This document shows positions 1 through 47,202 of a stretch of 47,202 nucleotides of DNA, in pieces. Position 1 is the stretch's first letter, and each line of letters opens with the position of its first letter. The notes beneath the pieces are model-generated. The model was not told where the DNA came from and searched no databases. It saw only the letters and a program-made list of their open reading frames with translations. The translations under genes and the position numbers were made by a program. Origin of the DNA: a virus; the IMG/VR virus record IMGVR_UViG_3300025438_000031, positions 1 to 47,202 of that record; one strand, 5' to 3'.

Positions 1-110
1 GACCCTGTTGCAAATTGGAGTCGCTCACTATTACTCATACGTGCGGCTCCTACATTTTGGAGAAATAGTTCAACCGTGTCTGCAAATTGCTCGTTTCTAT
101 TACGCTTCAT
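1..110 (-). CDS. Partial gene, start of a tail-module protein
   Basis: The start of a further minus-strand gene runs off the left edge. The ATG at 110-108 overlaps the stop codon of the preceding large tail gene (ATGAAGCGTAA), an arrangement seen between all its neighbours, which suggests translational coupling. The 36 visible codons begin MKRNRNEQFADTVELF and contain no stop. Too little is visible to assign a family. By position it should be the next tail or fibre gene of the left-arm module. Confidence 0.55.
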   Translation of the reverse strand, partial: MKRNRNEQFADTVELFLQNVGAARMSNSERLQFATG

Positions 111-2433
111 CGTTCCATGTTCTAAAACGCCCGCCAAGGGCATTGATTTGTATAGTGATTTCCGTATTAACTGCGATTTCTGCCAGTGCATAGGCGCTTA
201 AGTTTGGGTTTATTGACACCTTAGCAGTGCCTAGATAGAAATCTGAGCCGATGCTAATCGCTCCTATTGATGTCAGGTCTATTTGTGTTGGGTCGCCTGT
301 GAAGTTTACCTTTCCCCCTGGGGTTATCACATAGGCTTTAGGACTGTTGTTTGTTCGGCTTGATTGCAGGGTTGCAATTGCCTTATTGCCGTCGCTTGCG
401 TCGTGCCTTATCTCTACAATTCGGAAATAGTTTCCTTCCATGTATATTTCATCGTTCAATTTGTACTTTTGGAACTCTGAGGTCGACAAATACACTTGAA
501 CGGACTCAAGCTTTCGGCTTAAAATGTCGTATTGATTTATGATAGTGTTCTGAAAGAATAACTTGTAAGCCGTTTCGGTTGCCACAACACCAATTAAAGG
601 GTTCTCAAGAGAATAGGCTAAAGTAAAATCATCCGATTCAGAGGGAGAGCCTTGTACTGAAGAGATTAAAGGATAGCTTGTTTGAAGAGCGCTTGTTGGT
701 GTTGGGCCGTTTAACCCATCTTGTAAATAGTAGTTGCTTCCAGACGCGCTTTTTGTTCCGTTAAAATAGAATAAGAGCCACGGTTCAGCAACGGGTGAGC
801 CCTCACCGTCGATTGATTTATGAATGATAACATTAGCGGCGCTCTGGGTTGCTTGGCCGTTGGCGTTTACTTCGAGCATTACCGCAGGAGGAATCAACGT
901 GCAAGGGTTCTCAATTGTCAACTTGTCTTCACCAAATTCAACGTCGGGCCTCACCCTTAACTGTCCATAGGCGCGACCGCCTGTCGCGTTCTTAAATACC
1001 TGTTGCGCCGAACTATCCGTTTCGGTGTACTTGAAGTCAAGCTCCTTAAATACCTTTCTCTTGGAGTAGACTAGGTTCTTAATGTCAGTCATTTTTGACC
1101 AATCGCGAACCACGCCCCCATCGTACCACTCGTCAGCCGAAGCAATCGAATACTTGTTTGCGTCGAAGTCGTCAGGAATTATAAGAAGGTTCCAAGACTT
1201 GAATAGTTTTGAAATCCAATCTACTATCTTAACGTCAGGCATATTAACACCTAAATCAACATTGTTTCCTAAAACATTAGTTGGGCTTATTACCTCAAGA
1301 ACGCCGCCCTGAATTTGGCAGTTCTTACCTAGCTGAAATCCCGTATCTTCTCTGATCAGAAAGAGTTGAAAAGTGTCACCCGCATCTAGCTCAATTGTGC
1401 TCTGAAAAACAATGAATGTTCCAAATGTATCTTCATTATCCCTAAATATCGTAAAAAATAAATCATTCAAGATACCCGGCCTCCTAATTACAAGCGTATA
1501 CTCTCCCGCCGTGAATGGTGTTGTTGTTCCAGTCAGCTGCAACGTAAGTGTTATGCTAATTGTGTAGCCTCCCGCGATTGCCGCTGTAAACGTGTCGGTT
1601 CCGTTCCACTGGTTTTCTGGATCTACTACCTCGGTAACTAGGGTAATAATTGATTCACTGGCAGGACTTGTAATTAAGGCGCTCGTCGCGCCTGTTACTT
1701 TAGTGAGAGAATCATCAAACGTTGCAGGATCTTCACTCGCTCCACTCAATCTATTCGGTAATATAAAAAGGTCATCAAAGAAGTTTCCTGTTCCCGTTAT
1801 TAGTGAACCCTCTAATGTCAGACCGTAATGTGAAAATATTGTGGATAGAAAGTTTCGGATCTTGATCGCTGGCTTTAGGTCGGTCAATAGGATTGGCTGG
1901 TTCTCGTTTGCTATGTTACCTTTAATGTTCAAATCAAAAGGCGCAAAAAAATAGTTCACCCTAGTGTCAACTAATGGATAACGAACAACACCTGACAATA
2001 GGCCGCCGCCCCAACTGCCTCGAACGTTCGCATAGGTCAACGTGTGGTCATACTCACCCCAATCGACTTGACTAAAGCGATCTGTTCCGATGATGTTGGC
2101 AAGGGTTCTCTGCTTACCATAGAACACGAACTCAATACTCTTAGGGTCGCCGTTCTCATAAATTACCTTCCGAACTTCTAAGCGGCCCTCGAATCTGCTT
2201 GAGGTGCTTACCGTCCATATACATTCAATACCCTTGTGCGGGTTGAAGGTGCTGTTGGCTGTGATTAAGCCGTAATTATCCAACGCCTCAAGATTCTTTT
2301 TGCTGACGGGGCCAAGAAAGGTGCGGCTAAACTCAGACTCTTTCGAGGTGATTTCCGAGAAGTCTTGTGACCGTCGAGTAATGTTGATGGTCTGCTTTTC
2401 GAATAGGTCGAGGTCGGTTGAGATGTCTATCAT
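100..2433 (-). CDS. Large tail protein (hub/baseplate-like), left arm
   Basis: This 777-residue protein is rich in beta-type sequence and has no signal peptide or membrane segment. The N-terminal 100 residues (DLDLFEKQTINITRRSQDF onward, then the segment around SFEGRLEVRKV-like residues) have the character of large tail-tip proteins of Bacteroidota siphophages that follow the tape measure. Size and position match the 823-residue protein at 24032-26503, although the sequences differ. It overlaps the preceding gene by 4 nt. A structural role at the tail tip is inferred from size, module order and composition; I see no enzymatic motif. It could equally be a large distal tail or receptor-binding protein. 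Confidence 0.55.
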   Translation of the reverse strand: MIDISTDLDLFEKQTINITRRSQDFSEITSKESEFSRTFLGPVSKKNLEALDNYGLITANSTFNPHKGIECIWTVSTSSRFEGRLEVRKVIYENGDPKSIEFVFYGKQRTLANIIGTDRFSQVDWGEYDHTLTYANVRGSWGGGLLSGVVRYPLVDTRVNYFFAPFDLNIKGNIANENQPILLTDLKPAIKIRNFLSTIFSHYGLTLEGSLITGTGNFFDDLFILPNRLSGASEDPATFDDSLTKVTGATSALITSPASESIITLVTEVVDPENQWNGTDTFTAAIAGGYTISITLTLQLTGTTTPFTAGEYTLVIRRPGILNDLFFTIFRDNEDTFGTFIVFQSTIELDAGDTFQLFLIREDTGFQLGKNCQIQGGVLEVISPTNVLGNNVDLGVNMPDVKIVDWISKLFKSWNLLIIPDDFDANKYSIASADEWYDGGVVRDWSKMTDIKNLVYSKRKVFKELDFKYTETDSSAQQVFKNATGGRAYGQLRVRPDVEFGEDKLTIENPCTLIPPAVMLEVNANGQATQSAANVIIHKSIDGEGSPVAEPWLLFYFNGTKSASGSNYYLQDGLNGPTPTSALQTSYPLISSVQGSPSESDDFTLAYSLENPLIGVVATETAYKLFFQNTIINQYDILSRKLESVQVYLSTSEFQKYKLNDEIYMEGNYFRIVEIRHDASDGNKAIATLQSSRTNNSPKAYVITPGGKVNFTGDPTQIDLTSIGAISIGSDFYLGTAKVSINPNLSAYALAEIAVNTEITIQINALGGRFRTWNDEA

Positions 2434-3629
2434 TTGATATTCTGAATTAGATTGCCTGCCAACTCGAATTCCAACTCATAGTTCACAAGGTTCTTATCGC
2501 TTTCTTTTCGAATTGCCAAGCCGCTTGTTTTGATCAACACGTTCTGGTTCTCGACAAAGCTAAAATGCTGACGGCTTAATAGTAAATCTTGCACCTGTTT
2601 GTTCTGCTCGTTCTTTACAAATCCTGTGTTGAGAGTGATTGACTTACCACCGATAACCGCAACCGTTCCCTTTTCGCTTATTCCTTTGGGTATCTCAAGC
2701 CTACCTCTTATCGAAGAATTAACAGCAACTCTTCGATCAAATGTAGTTCGGCTCTGGCTTATCTGCTCGGATGCTCGACCTCTCATAGATAGGTAGTCCC
2801 AAACGCCGTACCTGTTAATGTAACACATCACATCGCTTTCAATATCGCAGAAGTCAGCGTTTAGGTAGGATGCTGTAATAGTTTCGAAGACCGTTGGTCC
2901 GCCGTCGTCAACCGCCAATGTGAAAGTGCATGAATTAACGGGTGTAAGTGTTCCGCCTGACAAAGTATCAAGCTCATCCTTACCCGTCGGAATACGAAGG
3001 ATCACATCTTCAACATCGCTAGGAGTTCCTGTTAGTGAAACATCAAAGGAAGTCCCTTGGTCATCTACGATTACCACCTTACGCCCTTGCTCAAATCCCT
3101 TGAACACATGAATCGCTGAGCCATCGGAGAGGTTTGAGACTATGACAGTAGATTGAGGTGCTAGAAATGCTTCTGCGTCGTTAATTGCAGTCCTATTCTC
3201 ATAGGTGTTAATGTCTGATTGTACCGCAGAATAACCAGGGGTTACGAAGAACGTATCAACGTCGCCTTCCTTGGTGTAGGCTCCATCTAAATAAAAACCG
3301 TACTCAACCGACACACCCATTACACCCACCTTTGTTTCTGTTCCTGTTGCTATGTTTGGCCTGTCAGGTAAGAACTGATCGTTCAGGAACTCGGACACAT
3401 CGAAAACTCCGTACAAATCAATGTTGGGAAAGGCTAACAATTCGATAGAAGAAGGCAAAGCGGGTACTGTTGCAATCGCGCCCTCCAATCTAAAACGAAT
3501 CCGTACAACATACCGATAGGTGCGGTTAGTTACGCTTGGCCCGCTTTGCTCTTGCAGGGTTATGATGATAGGACTCCTGCTAAGTGCGAGAGTATTTACC
3601 GACGGGGCTTGTATTAGGACAATGGCCAT
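2430..3629 (-). CDS. Tail-module structural protein, left arm
   Basis: This 399-residue protein has many beta-prone stretches and no recognised catalytic motif. It starts MAIVLIQAPSVNTLALSRSP and runs directly into the 777-residue tail gene with a 4-nt overlap. Its start overlaps the end of the gp10-like gene by 16 nt. In the main genome the protein next to the large hub-like protein is a 281-residue beta-rich tail protein (23194-24039). The functional equivalence of the two is an inference from position only. I would call it a putative tail protein of unknown exact role. Confidence 0.5.
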   Translation of the reverse strand: MAIVLIQAPSVNTLALSRSPIIITLQEQSGPSVTNRTYRYVVRIRFRLEGAIATVPALPSSIELLAFPNIDLYGVFDVSEFLNDQFLPDRPNIATGTETKVGVMGVSVEYGFYLDGAYTKEGDVDTFFVTPGYSAVQSDINTYENRTAINDAEAFLAPQSTVIVSNLSDGSAIHVFKGFEQGRKVVIVDDQGTSFDVSLTGTPSDVEDVILRIPTGKDELDTLSGGTLTPVNSCTFTLAVDDGGPTVFETITASYLNADFCDIESDVMCYINRYGVWDYLSMRGRASEQISQSRTTFDRRVAVNSSIRGRLEIPKGISEKGTVAVIGGKSITLNTGFVKNEQNKQVQDLLLSRQHFSFVENQNVLIKTSGLAIRKESDKNLVNYELEFELAGNLIQNIK

Positions 3630-4177
3630 TTTGAAATTTGTTTAAGCAGGTCATTTGCAACGCGCTTTCCGAGAGTTTCCCGTAGTTCGTTGCTGTAAAT
3701 GTCAATTGTTTTGGTGAAGAAGTTGTTGCCCTCAATACCGAATGTTTTGATTTTCCTATTGATCTGAAATGCTAGTGCTCGATAACCTGAGGCACTTGCT
3801 TTTGCGAATCCACGGCCCCCACCTTTTTGAAGTCGAACGGGTTTTTCTGCTATCCATTTAGTCAACTCATCGTAAGGCATCCCCTTACCTTTCTTCCTGC
3901 CAAAGTTGACGTAATACCAATACTCAGCGGCATAGAATGTAACGATCGTATTACCTAGCACCTCGTTGATCTCGTACCGTATCGAGTCACTTAGATTGCC
4001 TGAGCTGTCGGGAACGTATCGCTTAGTGGTCACCTTGAATGACTGAAGGTTCCCGCCCTTCCATGTCGCGCGGTAAGACTTCTTAGATTGCTTTGCCGCC
4101 AGCTCAAGCTTGGCATCTTTAACAACGCCCTCCGCAAATTCTGTGTATGCTAATAGTTGTTGTTCGTTGGCTAACAT
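3614..4177 (-). CDS. Virion morphogenesis protein, HK97 gp10-like
   Basis: This 187-residue protein is basic in its second half. The segment around residues 85-115 (AAEYWYYVNFGRKKGKGMP, then LTKWI) is the hallmark of the gp10-like/tail-completion proteins that sit at the head-tail interface of Bacteroidota siphophages: an aromatic cluster followed by a GR-KGKG-P turn and a helix. The module order (terminator, then this gene, then tail proteins) is plausible for a neck or tail-completion factor. In the main genome the 146-residue gene at 31027-31467 occupies an analogous place. The family assignment is by pattern, not by alignment. Confidence 0.6.
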   Translation of the reverse strand: MLANEQQLLAYTEFAEGVVKDAKLELAAKQSKKSYRATWKGGNLQSFKVTTKRYVPDSSGNLSDSIRYEINEVLGNTIVTFYAAEYWYYVNFGRKKGKGMPYDELTKWIAEKPVRLQKGGGRGFAKASASGYRALAFQINRKIKTFGIEGNNFFTKTIDIYSNELRETLGKRVANDLLKQISKWPLS

Positions 4178-4200
4178 TTCTGGTTCATTAAAGAAACATA

Positions 4201-4293
4201 TTACTTGTTTTTTGTGTCATCAAACAACGTTTCACCAACACACACGCAAACAGCAAGCGTCAGCCCCGCGAATATAAAGACAGCACCTAACAT
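4201..4293 (-). CDS. 30-residue membrane miniprotein
   Basis: A short open frame whose ATG lies inside the stop region of the tail-terminator gene (ATGTTAG), so it is probably translated by coupling. The product, beginning MLGAVFIFAGLTLAVCVCVG, is a single hydrophobic segment followed by a short acidic/basic tail ending DDTKNK. The main genome has an 87-residue membrane protein with cysteines in the comparable position between terminator and chaperone (30201-30464). The function is unknown. Its position between two coupled genes and the clean transmembrane pattern are the evidence that it is real. Confidence 0.45.
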   Translation of the reverse strand: MLGAVFIFAGLTLAVCVCVGETLFDDTKNK

Positions 4294-4769
4294 GAGCTCG
4301 TGTAATTTTGCAACGTGAAATTGATTGTTCCAATCCATCCAGACACCCGAACGTTTCCCTCTTCTTGAACGGCTGACCATTGAGGCGAAGCGGCCACCTT
4401 ATAGTAACCACCGTCACCCATGTCAATTGTCCTGTCCTGAATCGGTCGCATGAATGAATCTATTACACTCATGCAAGTGTCCAAATTGTCGATGGTGTTC
4501 TGGTCACCGTAGATCGGATCTGCTGACTGCTCTTGATCGAGCTTGATCATAGTCGTTATGTCATACACGAAGATTTCCAGTTGAACAACGTTGACCTCGT
4601 TGGTTGAGAACCCCACGGGTGCAATGTGAGCACCGGGTGTAACGGGGCTTTTCTGACTACGCATATAGTCGGGAGTGTCACCGAACGTTACGACCGCACA
4701 CCCCGCCGTTTTAAGTCGGGCTATGATGTTTTCGGTTAGGTCATAGAAGCCTCTGTATATTTCGCTCAT
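4287..4769 (-). CDS. Tail terminator-like protein, left arm
   Basis: This 160-residue protein has the layout of siphophage tail-terminator/neck proteins: an N-terminal helix (YRGFYDLTENIIARLKTAG), a middle beta region with VVQLEIFVYDIT, a loop describing dates or pairs of values, and a final strand pair ending in an aromatic-rich segment. Its ATG overlaps the stop of the frameshifted chaperone extension (ATCATGAGC), which indicates translational coupling. The 193-residue protein at 30449-31030 is the positional counterpart in the main genome. The function is inferred from size, fold-like pattern and module order. Confidence 0.5.
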   Translation of the reverse strand: MSEIYRGFYDLTENIIARLKTAGCAVVTFGDTPDYMRSQKSPVTPGAHIAPVGFSTNEVNVVQLEIFVYDITTMIKLDQEQSADPIYGDQNTIDNLDTCMSVIDSFMRPIQDRTIDMGDGGYYKVAASPQWSAVQEEGNVRVSGWIGTINFTLQNYTSSC

Positions 4770-5005
4770 GATGTAATATCAGATTTAAAAGCCAATGAAA
4801 AAAGAGCCGTGTGAACGTTCAGCTCACCAACAGCATTTAGTTCTAATACGTTACCATCCGCTAAAATGTGAAAGTGAGCAAACCAGCCGTATCGCTCCTG
4901 TATCATTTGTGCCTTTGATCTGTCTTTGGCTGAAGCTTTTGAATTTGAGGCAGCAAAGAATCCCGGGTATAACTGTGCAACTCCATCGAACCACGCAAAA
5001 AAAAA
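4766..5005 (-). CDS. -1 frame extension of the tail assembly chaperone
   Basis: A -1 slip on the T9 run (minus strand, 5005-4997) leads out of the 199-residue frame into a second open frame of about 77 codons. This frame begins AWFDGVAQLYPGFF after the run and ends LFSLAFKSDITS, with a TGA that overlaps the ATG of the tail-terminator gene. The segment ERYGWFAHFHIL followed by LNAVGELNVHTAL has the typical look of chaperone C-terminal halves in Bacteroidota phages. No start codon with good context opens this frame by itself, so it is best read as the T part of a G/GT pair. An SD-like AGGGG lies about 7 nt upstream of the slip site. A homopolymer sequencing error is the alternative. Confidence 0.6.
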   Translation of the reverse strand, partial: FFFAWFDGVAQLYPGFFAASNSKASAKDRSKAQMIQERYGWFAHFHILADGNVLELNAVGELNVHTALFSLAFKSDITS

Positions 5006-5502
5006 CTCTTGACCCCTATAAAAAGGGCTGAGGGTGCGGCTTTGAATACCTCTTGACGCTTGTGGTAATCATCTGACAACGGGAGGTGCGGCTCTATCGC
5101 ATACATCCCACCCATCGCTTTGTGCTCCCTGCTAATCGGACGGTAAAGGATAGCCAGTACCTTGTGCCATGTGCCGGGGTTTTCAAACGCCGTGCATAGG
5201 TCAGCCATGAAAGCAAATGTGATCTCATCTAACTGAGGCTCGACGGCATAGGTAACGCCGTCGAGCCTGTACCTCTCTATTAGTTCGGTGTCGGAATCAT
5301 TCAACGCGCTAATCAAGGCAACCATTGAACGCTTCACATCTGTGGCCTTGACTAGCTTGCCCTCGTCGTGAGTGCATCCAGTCAGGCAGGAGAAGAGATG
5401 AACAAAGTCAAAGCGTTCCTCGTCTGGTAATTCATGGAAATGCTGAAAGCGACTCATTGGAACCTCAAGTGGTGAAGAGGGAACTGTGATTTCTTTAGTC
5501 AT
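4903..5502 (-). CDS. Tail assembly chaperone (G-type), left arm
   Basis: This 199-residue protein starts MTKEITVPSSPLEVPMSRFQ. After a basic or charged N-terminus it has helical repeats typical of proteins that bind the tape measure during tail assembly. The unslipped product ends after residues FFLRGSMELHSYTRDSLLPQ. Because the -1 frame continues with family-like sequence, the unslipped tail after the T9 run is probably just the short isoform. It is the positional and general-pattern counterpart of the 254-residue protein at 29440-30204. It begins within 4 nt of the end of the preceding gene. Confidence 0.55.
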   Translation of the reverse strand: MTKEITVPSSPLEVPMSRFQHFHELPDEERFDFVHLFSCLTGCTHDEGKLVKATDVKRSMVALISALNDSDTELIERYRLDGVTYAVEPQLDEITFAFMADLCTAFENPGTWHKVLAILYRPISREHKAMGGMYAIEPHLPLSDDYHKRQEVFKAAPSALFIGVKSFFLRGSMELHSYTRDSLLPQIQKLQPKTDQRHK

Positions 5503-5813
5503 TGATTCAAAGTTAGTTCTCCTCCTGTTAGTGCGAAGTAGAGGTTCTGTAATTGGTGGACGTGTGTCATTTTAAGATGTGACAATGACCCCGCACGAAA
5601 GGAAGCATCATTAAGTCTAATTAAGTAAAAATCATCTACATCGTAATACATATCATATTTCCTAAACCCAAACTTCAACAGCCACTCTTCTGTAAGTGGT
5701 ATCGGAAACGTGTTTTCCGATGTACAATTTTCGGGTAACGGTAAGTCCACCACCTCCTGAAGCTCACCATTTACAAAAATGTTATTTCCTATTCTCAATT
5801 CCTTTGCTTCCAT
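5499..5813 (-). CDS. Small conserved Bacteroidota protein of unknown function
   Basis: This 104-residue protein starts at MEAKELRIGN; an upstream in-frame ATG at 5852 exists, but the family pattern begins at 'ELRIGN'. The order LRIGN, then PIPLTEEWLLKFGF, then a C-terminal VHQLQNLYFALTG is a familiar arrangement in small proteins of Bacteroidota genomes and their phages. Its function is unknown. It lies immediately before the chaperone and overlaps it by 4 nt, but such genes are usually early or accessory genes rather than structural ones. The recognition is from memory of the motif; no function is claimed. Confidence 0.6.
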   Translation of the reverse strand: MEAKELRIGNNIFVNGELQEVVDLPLPENCTSENTFPIPLTEEWLLKFGFRKYDMYYDVDDFYLIRLNDASFRAGSLSHLKMTHVHQLQNLYFALTGGELTLNQ

Positions 5814-5920
5814 ATCTCTCAAATTAAAGAAGGGAGCGATACATCCCCGCATTCAATGCTCGCTCCCCGCTTCGTTTAATTAGTTGTTGATTAGTACTTA
5901 CCTGAGTTAAGGTGGCCTTT

Positions 5921-6124
5921 TTAGATTTCAATACATCCACAATCACTGTAAACGCAAAACATATCCTTGTCATACGCGCAACTCCCAAGGTAAACTATTC
6001 TTTTAGCGGATAGTGGGACGCTACCTGAATGACACCACCCAATATTAACATCCAAGACGTGAGTAATTTCAATTGGCTTTTCATCCTCCTGAACTTGTCC
6101 GTCAATTCTTATAACCTCTCTCAT
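5921..6124 (-). CDS. Small hypothetical protein
   Basis: A 67-residue protein beginning MREVIRIDGQVQ with four cysteines (GWCHSG, GSCAYD, FCVYSDCGC) in the second half. The spacing of the cysteines could support a metal site or a disulfide-stabilised fold, but no known zinc-ribbon pattern is complete. Its start overlaps the stop of the upstream 115-residue gene by 4 nt, which argues that it is translated. I do not recognise the family. Confidence 0.45.
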   Translation of the reverse strand: MREVIRIDGQVQEDEKPIEITHVLDVNIGWCHSGSVPLSAKRIVYLGSCAYDKDMFCVYSDCGCIEI

Positions 6125-6468
6125 CCTATCGCTTTTGCACCCATGTAAATTTCACGGAAAGACTTCTCCATCGCAACGAACCTGTCATAGTCCTCACGGC
6201 TAATGGTTACCATTCCAGCATCTTCTGGAAGGCTTTGATCGAAAGCCCTCTCTAGTTCTAGTTTAGGCTCAGGTGCTTCTTCACCGTACGCCAGAGCTTC
6301 GAGCCTGTCAATCTTGTTACCTGAATTACACTCACCATCTTCGGTGTAACAGCGGCCACTCATTTCGTCACGGTAAGGGTATCGGATCGCTAACTTGTCG
6401 TTGAGCTTGAGAGGCGCGGTAATCGTTCCATTCTCTGTGGTGTACTTTACTCCGTATTGTAATCTCAT
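6121..6468 (-). CDS. Small hypothetical protein next to the cassette junction
   Basis: I take the start at MRLQYGVKYTTENG (6468). The frame is open further upstream, but that sequence is the attC-like site and AT-rich leader. The 115-residue product is acidic in its middle (YGEEAPEPKLELE) and ends in a helix with MVTISREDYDRFVAMEKSF. This looks like an accessory protein rather than a virion protein. It is the last left-arm gene before the cassette boundary. I do not recognise a family. Confidence 0.5.
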   Translation of the reverse strand: MRLQYGVKYTTENGTITAPLKLNDKLAIRYPYRDEMSGRCYTEDGECNSGNKIDRLEALAYGEEAPEPKLELERAFDQSLPEDAGMVTISREDYDRFVAMEKSFREIYMGAKAIG

Positions 6469-6522
6469 GTTTTTGGTTTTTGTTTGTTCTGCAATATACA
6501 ATTTATGTTTTAGATGGACTAA

Positions 6523-6580
6523 TTTCAACAGCCGCTTAATGCCATTCGAAGAGAACGGCACGAAGCTTAGTGTTATGTGT
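6523..6580 (+). repeat. attC-like site Z, left-arm context
   Basis: An imperfect palindrome ends at the core G(6572)|TTATGTGT. An R''-like element TTTCAAC lies at about 6523-6529, and an inner stem is formed by GCTTAATGCC (6534-6543) and GGCACGAAGC (6557-6566). It abuts the first base of the 79-bp repeat. I found no matching upstream cassette start (G|TTGAAA...) in the left arm, so only its right half is supported by the complementarity test used for the other sites. Confidence 0.5.
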
Positions 6581-6649
6581 AATAAAATAAAAAAGCCACC
6601 GCGCTTTTGTTTTTTCAAAACAATTTAGTTTGCACCTGTGTTTCATTAA
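6571..6649. repeat. 79-bp direct repeat, copy 1 (circle junction)
   Basis: Identical to 47124-47202 over all 79 bases; the two copies differ at the very next base on the left (g against a). The repeat holds the last codons of a methyltransferase gene and its R'' core. Repetition of an internal 79-mer at a contig end is what a de Bruijn branch point leaves, and 79 is a common assembly word size. Joining the copies closes a circle of 40,553 bp. Confidence 0.85.
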
Positions 6650-26503: not shown

Positions 26504-29447
26504 GTTTTCTGGTTATGTTTTTATAGCGTTCAACTGTGTTGCCGTTGCTGTCTGTGAAAAATTGACGCTCTCCCTGTTCTCTGATAGCTGTGACTTCTTT
26601 TTCCAGTCCTCTGAGGTCTGTTCTTTGCCCTTGGACATTAACAGCCAACCCTTGAGTGTCGTAGCTGTTAGCAAAGGTTTTCTCAAAGCTTCCTTTGTTC
26701 AAGCTGTCAATGACAGCAGGAAGCAATCTCTTGTATTTGGAAGTATGCTTTTTATTTATTATGGCAAGAGCCTCTCCTCCTTCAGCTCTTCGAGCTTTTC
26801 CGCTGGAGGTTGTGCCTATAGGAATGTCATTCCCACTGGCATGAGAGCCTCCTTGCAGGAATTCCAGTCCTCCGTCTCCGTACTCTTGGACAGGCTGCTT
26901 TGCTGCTTGAAAGGCTTTAACCTTGGAGGCAGCAAAAGAGCCCCACATGACAGCCAGAGCAGGAATTGCCCATGGGAACCCAAGCTGAGACCATATTTTT
27001 GTGGACGCTGTGAACATGTTGGAGGCTTGCATGACAGAGTCCAAAGCAATCTGAGCTTTTTGAGCTTTCTCCTGCTCCTTGAGCGCTTTCTCTTGGTTCT
27101 TTTTAGCTGCTTCATATTCAAGACGAGCCCCTTCTACATTTGCAGCGTACCCTTCTCTTTGAGCATTTATTTCAGCATCCAGTCTGCCTCTAGTAGCTTG
27201 GGTCTGAGTCTGAGCGTTCTGAACAGCTCTCTCTGCTGCTTTGGTCTGTGCAGCAAGGAATTGTCCTACTTGATCTATTGCAAACTGTGTGGAGGTATCT
27301 ATGGCACTTTTTTTCTCGTCCGACAAATTCAAACCTGCCAAGGAGTACAAATCAAACTCTTGACTTGACACAGCTCCTGTGAGCTCTTGGTCTATCTTCT
27401 CAATTTGATTTTTCATGATCTGGATTTGCTGGTCAGACAGGTCTTTGCTGCCTGCAGCGTTCAAAGCCAGCACAGCTTGCAGTCTGTCTTTCTCTGCCTG
27501 TAGCCTGAGCCTCGTCTTCTCTGCCTCTGTGGTCTTCATTATGTCAATCTCAGAAAGCCTGAGCTCCTTCTCTTGATCGAGAGCGCTCAGAGCCATCGCT
27601 TGTTCTTCCTTTTTGAGTTTTGCAACCTCCTCCAAAGCTTTCTCCTGTGCAGCTTTTTGCTGCACTTGAATTTTTGCCTGCTCCTTAGAAAGTCCTTCAT
27701 TTATTTGCAAAAGCTCGTCTGCTAACTTAGCCTCTAAAACTTGCCTCTGCAGAGCGTAGTCTGTCTCATTGATAAGAGCCAAGTCTTTCCTTCTTGAAAG
27801 CCCCTGCAGCTCAATCTCAGTGCTTTTACGGACTTGTTGAGCCTCCAGCTGAGCATTCTCAAGCAGTGCTGCTCTTTTCTGTTCAAAAGTAGAAGCGTTT
27901 GAAGCTATAATGTCGTCATTTGCTCTCTGCACAGCTGCTCTTTCGAGCCTGTTGAGCTGCAAATACGCCTTTGACCGTTCTCTTTCCTGCTTCAAAGCTT
28001 CCTCCCTGAGCATGTTCAACCTTCGAGCTCTTTGTCTTCTGAGCTCATCGAAACGAGTCTCCAAGTTGAACACTTCAGCAGCAGCCTCAGCAATGCCTTT
28101 TTTCGCTTCTATGTCATCCACTGCAAGGTCAGACTGCTTTCTCAGAATGCTTTCTCTCTGCTTTGCAAGGTCGAGCTCATTAGCCAGTACTTTCTGGTCA
28201 AACTCAAAAGAGGCTTCCATCAAAGCAATGCTGCTCTGAGCGTCCAATTTCTTCATTTCTTCTGAGGCTCCTCTTGCTGCAGCCGCTTCTCTGTTAAGCT
28301 TGGCATTCTCTACCAGATAAAGTCTTTCTGTTTTATTGTATCGAGCCTGAGCGTCCGCCAGAGCCACAGCTGCAATCACGTCTGCCTGTATTTCTGAGGC
28401 TAAATTTTTGGCTTTGTCAATAGCTGCAGAAAATCCTTCTGCCATTTCCTTGTTGAGTCCTTGTTGAGTCGAGGTCATTTCTGCTATTTTAGCATCTAAG
28501 GCAGCCAGCTCTGCCTGAGCAGCCTCTGAGTCCTCAACATCTCCTGTGAACTCGTTCCATCTGAGTTTGAGCTCTGTAAAGTCTTTTTTGAGTTCTGTCA
28601 CCCACAACTGGAAGCTAAGACCCGCACTTTTCAAAGCCTTTGGGATAGTGTCAAACAGTGCCACTCCTAACTCGGTCAGAATATCCATGACGTTGTCAAA
28701 AATACTGCTTGCCACGGTCATGACTTTGTTGAGTCGGTCTTGACCTTCCTCTGAGCGTTTCATAGAGGAGACAATGACTGCAAAGGCTCCTGCGATCAAA
28801 GCAAGGACTGCCACAATAGGGTTTGCCAAGAGTTTCACAAACTGAGCTCTGACTCCAGCAACCCCTTGCCCGAACCTGCCTAAAATGCTAGGCATTCCTT
28901 TCAAAGCGTCTCCATAGTTCCCGACATTGAGCGTATTTTTACCAGTAGCCTCCTGCAGATCTTTCATTCTTTCATAAAGGGCTTTGGACTCTTTCTCCAG
29001 CTTCTGCCCTTCTACAGTCCCAGACCTCTGAGCTTTGCTCATCTGGTTTAGTTTGATCTTGTTCAGGCTGTACTGAGCAGAGAGCTTGTTGTAGGAGCCC
29101 TCTGCAGACTTGTTGAGTTTAGCCGTCAGTTTATTGATGCTGTTTTGTTGACGCTGCTCTTCTTTGAGTTTTGTGATCTGCTTGGCTGTCTCCCCCTTCG
29201 AGAAAGCAAGTTTCTCCTCCGTCTTGGCAAGTTTGTCAGCCTCTACTGCTGCAGCTTGAGTTTGTTTTCTACCTTCTGCAGTAGCTCCGCTGACGTTTTT
29301 CATCGAGGCTTCTAGTTTAACAGCATCTTGAGTCACTTTTTTCTGCAAAGTTTCATATTCAAGACTGAGTTTTTCCAGCTGCCCTATTAGGTCTGTGACG
29401 CTCCCGTCTGGCTGTATAAAATCGCTGTACTTTAGTGGATTATCCAA
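26493..29447 (-). CDS. Tail tape measure protein
   Basis: I choose the TTG at 29447, which gives 984 residues. The frame is open 75 nt further upstream, but that part overlaps the chaperone gene, and an SD-like AAAGGGGAAAG sits just before the TTG. The protein has long heptad-rich coiled coils (ELANELDLAKQRESILRKQ; EAQQVRKSTEIELQGLSRR) with a hydrophobic segment NPIVAVLALIAGAFAVIVSS and a glycine-rich C-terminal part. This arrangement is classic for tape measures, which set tail length and help DNA or protein entry. The TTG start overlaps the chaperone stop. Confidence 0.88.
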   Translation of the reverse strand: MDNPLKYSDFIQPDGSVTDLIGQLEKLSLEYETLQKKVTQDAVKLEASMKNVSGATAEGRKQTQAAAVEADKLAKTEEKLAFSKGETAKQITKLKEEQRQQNSINKLTAKLNKSAEGSYNKLSAQYSLNKIKLNQMSKAQRSGTVEGQKLEKESKALYERMKDLQEATGKNTLNVGNYGDALKGMPSILGRFGQGVAGVRAQFVKLLANPIVAVLALIAGAFAVIVSSMKRSEEGQDRLNKVMTVASSIFDNVMDILTELGVALFDTIPKALKSAGLSFQLWVTELKKDFTELKLRWNEFTGDVEDSEAAQAELAALDAKIAEMTSTQQGLNKEMAEGFSAAIDKAKNLASEIQADVIAAVALADAQARYNKTERLYLVENAKLNREAAAARGASEEMKKLDAQSSIALMEASFEFDQKVLANELDLAKQRESILRKQSDLAVDDIEAKKGIAEAAAEVFNLETRFDELRRQRARRLNMLREEALKQERERSKAYLQLNRLERAAVQRANDDIIASNASTFEQKRAALLENAQLEAQQVRKSTEIELQGLSRRKDLALINETDYALQRQVLEAKLADELLQINEGLSKEQAKIQVQQKAAQEKALEEVAKLKKEEQAMALSALDQEKELRLSEIDIMKTTEAEKTRLRLQAEKDRLQAVLALNAAGSKDLSDQQIQIMKNQIEKIDQELTGAVSSQEFDLYSLAGLNLSDEKKSAIDTSTQFAIDQVGQFLAAQTKAAERAVQNAQTQTQATRGRLDAEINAQREGYAANVEGARLEYEAAKKNQEKALKEQEKAQKAQIALDSVMQASNMFTASTKIWSQLGFPWAIPALAVMWGSFAASKVKAFQAAKQPVQEYGDGGLEFLQGGSHASGNDIPIGTTSSGKARRAEGGEALAIINKKHTSKYKRLLPAVIDSLNKGSFEKTFANSYDTQGLAVNVQGQRTDLRGLEKEVTAIREQGERQFFTDSNGNTVERYKNITRKHVN

Positions 29448-30204
29448 GAGCTTTCCCCTTTTTGTTTGATTGCTTAAATAGTTTTTTGAGGTACTCAAAG
29501 GCGTTGTAAAACTGCAGCACACTCATGCCCTCAATACTGACTGTCAAATTCTTAGACAAAAACAAGCACATTTCCTCAAATTGTTTATTGTATTCAATCT
29601 CAGCACTGTCTTTGCCTGAGAACAGCCGAGGCTTTGCCAGAGTCAGGAGAAAGTCATCCACAGCCTCAATTTTGGAGGCGTTGTCCGTGCCTCTTATGAG
29701 AGAGTCAAGCTGCAGCAGTACTCTACTTTTTAGCCTGTCATAGTACTCCTTGAGAGAAGCGTCATCAAAATGACTTGGAAAATAGAGAGCCAGCTCGTGC
29801 TCGATTTTTTTTTTTAAGGTGTCCACGAGGCTGTGTAGCCAGCCTGTTTTGGCTTGGCTTAGAATGCCTAAAAGCTGGTGCAAGTTGTCGTCTGAAGTGT
29901 CCTCTATTATTTTCCCGTCAAGGGAGTAGATCATGCAGGCAAAGGCTAAGTGTTTGGGGTTTATCTCTTGAGAAATCAAATACAAAGACTGTCTCAAATT
30001 CTCCAGCTCTACTGCTGCACTCTTTGGGTCTGAGGTCAAGTATTTTCCAATCCTTGCTATGTGAGCGTTTATATCATTGAGGTCACTGCCTATTCCGCTG
30101 TCTATCAACATGAATTTATTGAACTTGTGAAATCTTTTTATAGGCAGCTCGTCAATAGAATCAAAGAGCTGCACTTTATGTTTTCCAACGGTCACGGTGT
30201 TCAT
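29440..30204 (-). CDS. Tail assembly chaperone-like protein, main genome
   Basis: A 254-residue, helical protein directly before the tape measure. The start MNTVTVGKHKVQLFDSIDEL and RFHKFNKFM pattern are like chaperones of the Bacteroidota siphophages. An A11 run (minus strand, 29815-29805) codes for KKK in DTLKKKIEHE. Slippage in either direction leads to a stop within about 13-24 codons, so in this genome the unslipped product is the long one. Its C-terminus overlaps the start of the tape measure. The role (binding the tape measure before tail polymerisation) is inferred from position and pattern. Confidence 0.55.
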   Translation of the reverse strand: MNTVTVGKHKVQLFDSIDELPIKRFHKFNKFMLIDSGIGSDLNDINAHIARIGKYLTSDPKSAAVELENLRQSLYLISQEINPKHLAFACMIYSLDGKIIEDTSDDNLHQLLGILSQAKTGWLHSLVDTLKKKIEHELALYFPSHFDDASLKEYYDRLKSRVLLQLDSLIRGTDNASKIEAVDDFLLTLAKPRLFSGKDSAEIEYNKQFEEMCLFLSKNLTVSIEGMSVLQFYNAFEYLKKLFKQSNKKGKALG

Positions 30205-47083: not shown

Positions 47084-47131
47084 CTTTATTTGTTAGAGTA
47101 ACAGGTATATTGGTGATAGCCCATGTTATGT
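47026..47131 (+). repeat. attC-like site Z, main-genome context
   Basis: R'' TAAGCACAAC (47026-47035) is the exact complement of the start of the cassette that begins after 46879. R' is G(47125)|TTATGTG. The 90 nt between contain CATGGCT and AGCCCATG as a bulged stem next to the core. If the circle closes, this is the site directly before the cassette 6573-7469. Confidence 0.5.
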
Positions 47132-47202
47132 GTAATAAAATAAAAAAGCCACCGCGCTTTTGTTTTTTCAAAACAATTTAGTTTGCACCTGTGTTTCATT
47201 AA
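47124..47202. repeat. 79-bp direct repeat, copy 2
   Basis: Exact copy of 6571-6649. The upstream flank (GGTGATAGCCCA) is unrelated to the flank at 6570. In a circular model the sequence continues at 6650. Confidence 0.85.
47168..47202 (-). CDS. Partial methyltransferase gene (3' end copy)
   Basis: The last codons (ending NETQVQTKLF) and stop of the cassette methyltransferase, identical to 6615-6649. The gene continues beyond the right edge, which is expected if the right end rejoins 6650 in a circle. It is not a separate gene. Confidence 0.85.
   Translation of the reverse strand, partial: NETQVQTKLF

Follow-up and report, generated by a model that had tools for sequence, protein, structure and literature searches.

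The window analysed here is a stretch of 47,202 nucleotides of viral DNA (IMG/VR record IMGVR_UViG_3300025438_000031, positions 1 to 47,202). On its minus strand lies a gene composed of two overlapping reading frames. Frame 0 encodes a short, G-like product of 199 amino acids (4903..5502) and includes an uninterrupted run of nine T nucleotides (T9, 4997..5005), both of which had been pointed out in a preliminary description of the locus. The surroundings of the run read AAG AGT TTT TTT TTG CGT in frame 0 (minus strand, run at 5005-4997), with the Ts themselves falling within the codons AGT TTT TTT TTG. Read one base back at the run, a T-like extension in the -1 frame (4766..5005, minus strand) stays open for 79 codons counted from the run, close to the approximately 77 originally estimated, and a TGA at 4768-4766 closes a fused long product of 245 amino acids. 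As had also been noticed, the end of this frame overlaps the start of the next gene: the TGA and the ATG at 4769-4767 share the letters ATGA. The preliminary description additionally contrasted the pure T run with the usual XXXYYYZ type of slip site. This contrast disappears on inspection, because a canonical in-frame heptamer of the X_XXY_YYZ form is contained in the run, namely U_UUU_UUU (and also U_UUU_UUG). The change of frame must fall within a zone of 163 nt, about one A/T run of nine or longer is met per 22 kb in other parts of related loci, and relatives at 20-24% identity still share the -1 extension at the protein level; together, these three properties place the arrangement beyond chance.

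The same arrangement is found in relatives of the window. Bases 2032-6574 are 99.4% identical to a 14.8-kb contig (L003), which has the same kind of run. The isolated Nonlabens phage P12024L shows the same layout directly after its terminase gene, with T9 at the aligned residue, and its -1 extension carries WGWYHTFNVIAA...LAYQSD. In a two-sequence comparison, the fused products of the window and P12024L are 22% identical over nearly their full length (E=2e-15), and the score of the two extensions alone beats all 2000 shuffles. The fused product of the window also matches phrog_32199, a family of unknown function in PHROG (E=4e-4), and the match is stronger in relatives. The annotation of P12024L lists two separate ORFs, the downstream one being 55 aa long and starting at an internal ATG, and PHROGs split the parts of the gene into two function-unknown families, 32199 and 38404. 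Both facts would suit a downstream frame that forms a small gene in its own right and has an independent start, with no programmed slip at all. However, conserved coding in the -1 frame (FF[LF].F...YPE[IL]Y) reaches back to the run, upstream of the internal ATG, T9 would be needless in such a gene, and one relative has both parts joined in frame (see below), so we regard a separate gene as very improbable.

No relative came out of scans of genome contigs, whether run with the single protein or with a profile, and when the window proteins were compared with Pfam, Rfam and phages, nothing informative was matched for the focal protein. A scan based on P12024L yielded 13 loci, and two successive profile scans gave 195 and at least 586 relatives, 80 being kept from each, all with search patterns that did not contain the run itself. 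At every locus of the P12024L-based scan and the first profile scan, the N-terminal and C-terminal parts are in different frames, and the extension is kept in P12024L and in all profile-scan loci. We pooled all sets and counted distinct 270-nt neighbourhoods (n=141). Exactly nine Ts with a -1 relation were present in 135 of these, so the run is conserved in relatives, which the preliminary description had named as a check. Three further neighbourhoods have T10 and one (L202) has T8, all with the -1 relation, which is thus found in 139/141; the T8 member still has the heptamer, and T7 is absent from the 141. The other frame relations occur in only two contigs. In L256 (478-1239), which has T10, the short and long parts are naturally fused in frame; it is the sole joined member found and provides a useful control for mechanism. 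L034 alone relates the two parts by +1, across a T11 run (near 5488-5498). Each of these two is represented by a single contig, in which a homopolymer assembly error is possible.

This census bears on two explanations that involve no recoding. The first is that the two frames truly form one gene, split by decay or by an indel from sequencing or assembly. Homopolymers are error-prone and the window looks chimeric (see below), but the split recurs at the same residue in some 140 distinct contigs and in an isolate, and the extension is conserved as protein. The preliminary description had proposed that relatives joined without a slip run would reveal such an indel; the single joined relative, L256, itself has T10. 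Because the run and the split are conserved across relatives, we rejected this explanation and give it next to no credence. The second is phase variation, in which replication slippage would alter the run length and switch the long form on or off. A homopolymer within a coding region would allow this, and L256, with its T10 and joined frames, resembles an 'on' form. Nevertheless, run length and frame relation are nearly constant, deep lineages included, which makes phase variation highly unlikely.

The genes that follow on the minus strand point to a tail module. The next gene (4287..4769, 160 aa) is in the place of a tail terminator; its own match to phrog_30964 has E=0.09, and that of its syntenic counterpart in contig L056 has E=1.7e-9. 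It is followed by a gene for a tail completion or HK97 gp10-like protein (3614..4177, 187 aa; phrog_5, E=3e-10; Pfam HK97-gp10_like score slightly below the cut-off), one for a probable tail-tube or other tail protein (2430..3629, 399 aa; phrog_35281, E=8e-7, a family common to this product and the syntenic genes of L056 and P12024L), and one for a large tail protein (100..2433, 777 aa; phrog_38559, E=6e-10), which precedes a tape-measure-like ORF in the related contig L002. The order terminase, focal gene, terminator-like gene, gp10-like gene, probable tube gene, large tail gene, tape measure was read in L002, in P12024L and, as far as its locus extends, in L056, with small genes interrupting it in individual phages. 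The focal gene is therefore situated among tail genes and upstream of the tape measure, without adjoining it. Within the large tail gene itself, the near-identical window and L002 (9070-11376) diverge (777 versus 768 aa) while the ends of the gene remain near-identical, as if its middle had been exchanged between the two.

G/GT tail chaperones are recognised by a pair of overlapping frames that lies among tail genes, upstream of the tape measure. The lambda-type representatives of these tail assembly chaperones have been reviewed (PMC5009743). The focal protein matches no Pfam family and no named PHROG. Its predicted structural models are confident (mean pLDDT 85). A model of the L256 fusion matched the HK97 chaperone 2ob9 weakly (Z 3.5 over 66 residues), and a model of the window's short product had no match in the PDB with Foldseek or VIA-align, 2ob9 included. 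Among predicted viral structures (BFVD), the best named match was to P12024S, the entry being named tail assembly chaperone (E=0.04). Since both parts of the gene fall in PHROG families without known function, we infer from anatomy and synteny that it probably encodes a tail-assembly chaperone. The likeness to the G/GT arrangement of siphophage tails that had been proposed thus fits well in anatomy and gene neighbourhood, and in the identity of the protein it holds as a probable assignment.

The preliminary description placed the focal gene in a left arm, and this part of it we would revise. The match between the window and L003 (2032-6574) stops where a 79-bp exact direct repeat begins (6571..6649, identical to 47124-47202). 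Given these two observations, 6571-47202 appears to be a whole second phage bounded by the 79-bp terminal repeat, positions 1-6570 look derived from a P12024-like phage, and the arm with the focal gene appears foreign to the rest of the window, the repeat marking the start of the second phage and the chimeric junction. In L002, the focal fragment runs on upstream into the terminase and downstream into the tape-measure-like gene. In our reading, the 6570/6571 junction looks like an assembly error; a natural junction is possible. A search of other contigs for the closed circle of the second phage gave no exact match, a result that decides nothing about the chimera. If the window is chimeric, it holds two tail modules and two tail chaperones. 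Close to the junction, a 98-bp intergenic element (6464-6561) is 79% alike to L003:10-100, the two copies being upstream of two different genes; it is possibly a repeated promoter region.

What remains to be explained is how the -1 frame is entered. In every T9 member, whatever the phase of the run, U_UUU_UUU is in frame 0. A ribosomal site of this kind needs only seven Us. The T9 run nevertheless occurs in three phases: with one extra T on each side of the heptamer (GTT TTT TTT TAC), with two on the right (GCT TTT TTT TTG), which is also the phase of the window's AGT TTT TTT TTG, and with two on the left (TTT TTT TTT GTG). Each phase adds up to nine, such that the ends of the run compensate for one another. 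After clustering at 50%, 15/18 representatives have exactly nine Ts, whereas 6.7 would be expected from random pairing of ends, and only 1/20,000 shuffles was as high; at 60, 70 and 90% no shuffle reached the observed count, and at 40% the six groups left give the length test no power. Since the clusters still share ancestry, these shuffle figures are not strict probabilities. On the tree, at least five changes of phase or length are needed. The occupation of three phases and the compensating ends thus suggest that a length of nine is kept beyond the seven that a ribosome needs. Conservation of T at the ends of the run may stem partly from hydrophobic residues encoded in both frames.

Downstream stimulatory structures are frequent at ribosomal -1 sites, although they are not obligatory. 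Among 28 representatives, we found no downstream RNA structure above shuffles (mean z +0.29), and Rfam gave no match. The run is an A/T homopolymer of about nine or more with conserved length, as expected of a slippage site, and it is at nine that selection against slippage in A/T runs becomes evident for a large proportion of bacterial genomes (PMC1088944). Furthermore, other run lengths go with other frame relations (joined with T10 in L256, +1 with T11 in L034, each a single contig as noted above), and the second chaperone family of the same window has its own conserved homopolymer (A9-A11 in 84/84 members, see below).

The conservation of nine Ts in three phases and the lack of downstream structure, along with the literature on nine-nucleotide A/T runs and on mxiE, lead us to favour transcriptional slippage by RNA polymerase at T9, with a probability of roughly 0.6, as the source of a short and a long product of the lambda G/GT kind. 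One gene would then give rise to a short chaperone of 199 aa and a long form of 245 aa, whose additional C-terminal domain comes from the -1 frame. The polymerase would slip on T9 to make a fraction of mRNAs with ten Us (or seven), whose normal translation would yield the long form, and the ratio of the products would be set accordingly during transcription. By the lambda analogy, binding of the tape-measure protein would fall to the short form and recruitment of the tail-tube protein to the extension.

The main competitor, which we consider less probable while taking it seriously, is ribosomal -1 frameshifting on U_UUU_UUU as in lambda G/GT, here operating without a structural stimulator and with the two extra Ts due to codon constraint or to a raised slip efficiency. 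Ribosomal frameshifting is the established mechanism of tail chaperones (PMC5009743), a working type of ribosomal slip site is in frame in every T9 member, and the heptamer survives even in the T8 member, L202. The direction of the shift is nearly always -1. According to a published rule, a uniform frame relation within a family indicates ribosomal frameshifting, and more than one relation indicates transcriptional slippage (PMC3711429), so the near-uniform -1 relation speaks against slippage. On the other hand, nine Ts are kept in three phases where seven suffice, with one T8 and no T7 member, downstream structure is lacking, and L034, with T11, requires +1 rather than -1. Thus, of the programmed -1 frameshift at T9 that was initially suggested, the two-product gene with its -1 relation is strongly supported, and the assignment of the shift to the ribosome is less so.

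The second phage of the window has a tail chaperone of its own (29440..30204, minus strand), a member of phrog_8914, with an A11 run at 29815-29805. In all 84 profile-examined sequences of this family, lysine codons 131-133 lie within an A run (A9 in 12, A10 in 71, and A11 in the window alone), even though AAG makes up 43% of the other lysine codons in these genes. The full-length frame is already in frame at the run, and the conserved A9-A11 suggests a slip site that makes a short product. Like the T9 family of probable tail chaperones, this family is encoded upstream of the tape measure and has a conserved homopolymer; the two differ in that the homopolymer is A rather than T and that a slip would shorten rather than lengthen the product. 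A sequence relation between the two was not seen in a shallow comparison. The phrog_8914 protein of Elizabethkingia phage TCUEAP2 is annotated as a tail assembly chaperone. In Croceibacter phage P2559S (L098:1501-2266), the gene is split into two annotated ORFs at A8 with a +1 relation, which may be natural and slip-dependent or may reflect a homopolymer called too short. Given the hosts of phrog_8914 relatives (Bacteroides, Flavobacterium, Parabacteroides, Croceibacter) and the host of P12024L, both phages of the window likely infect Bacteroidota. We see an even chance that Bacteroidota phages set the chaperone ratio with the polymerase and not the ribosome in two families without detected relation, where slipping gives the long form at T9 and the short form at A9-A11.

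Whichever agent slips, the focal gene is real, conserved and programmed. Ribosomal recoding in phages is commonly exemplified by G/GT frameshifting in tail chaperones. Genes of the G/GT kind being known, the novelty likely lies in the level at which the slip happens. In a search of mostly open literature, which is weak evidence for novelty, we found no paper tying transcriptional slippage or a homopolymer to the tail chaperones of Bacteroidota phages. If our favoured reading is true, a large unannotated group shows that transcription, too, can set this product ratio. PHROG families 32199 and 38404 would merge into one gene, correcting the annotation of many phages, and the choice between ribosome and polymerase is directly testable in the isolated phages P12024L or P12024S.

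The closest known system is that of the lambda gpG/gpGT and related tail assembly chaperones, reportedly treated by Xu and colleagues in 2004. As in lambda, two frames overlap where the first one nears its end and stand in a -1 relation, the second frame is conserved as protein and is reached by a shift at a slippery site, the long form gains a C-terminal domain, and the setting is one of tail genes upstream of the tape measure. Unlike lambda, the focal site is a run of Ts whose length is held at precisely nine across three phases; the gene comes directly after the terminase and before the terminator, completion and tube genes rather than beside the tape measure; the protein has no sequence match to known chaperones; and the favoured mechanism is transcriptional.

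For that mechanism, the nearest parallels are cellular. Shigella mxiE obtains its longer product through a U run (PMC1088944), and type III secretion genes that slip during transcription have reported yields of 15-55% (PMC1088944, PMC4256274). As we propose for the focal gene, the frame is restored at a run of Us in the mRNA, with a longer product as the outcome; these are cellular regulator or secretion genes, however, and slippage has been measured there, whereas for the focal gene it is inferred. In Thermus dnaX and in tssM of Citrobacter and Yersinia, runs of nine to eleven As lead to two length variants (PMC1088944, PMC4256274). These too are cellular proteins, and the run is of A, unlike the T run of the focal gene. 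Slippage at the A run of phrog_8914 would shorten the product as it does in dnaX (PMC1088944). In tssM, slippage is needed for the long form in C. rodentium and for the short form in Yersinia (PMC1088944, PMC4256274), a dependence that would be paralleled by the two chaperone families of the window, if these slip.
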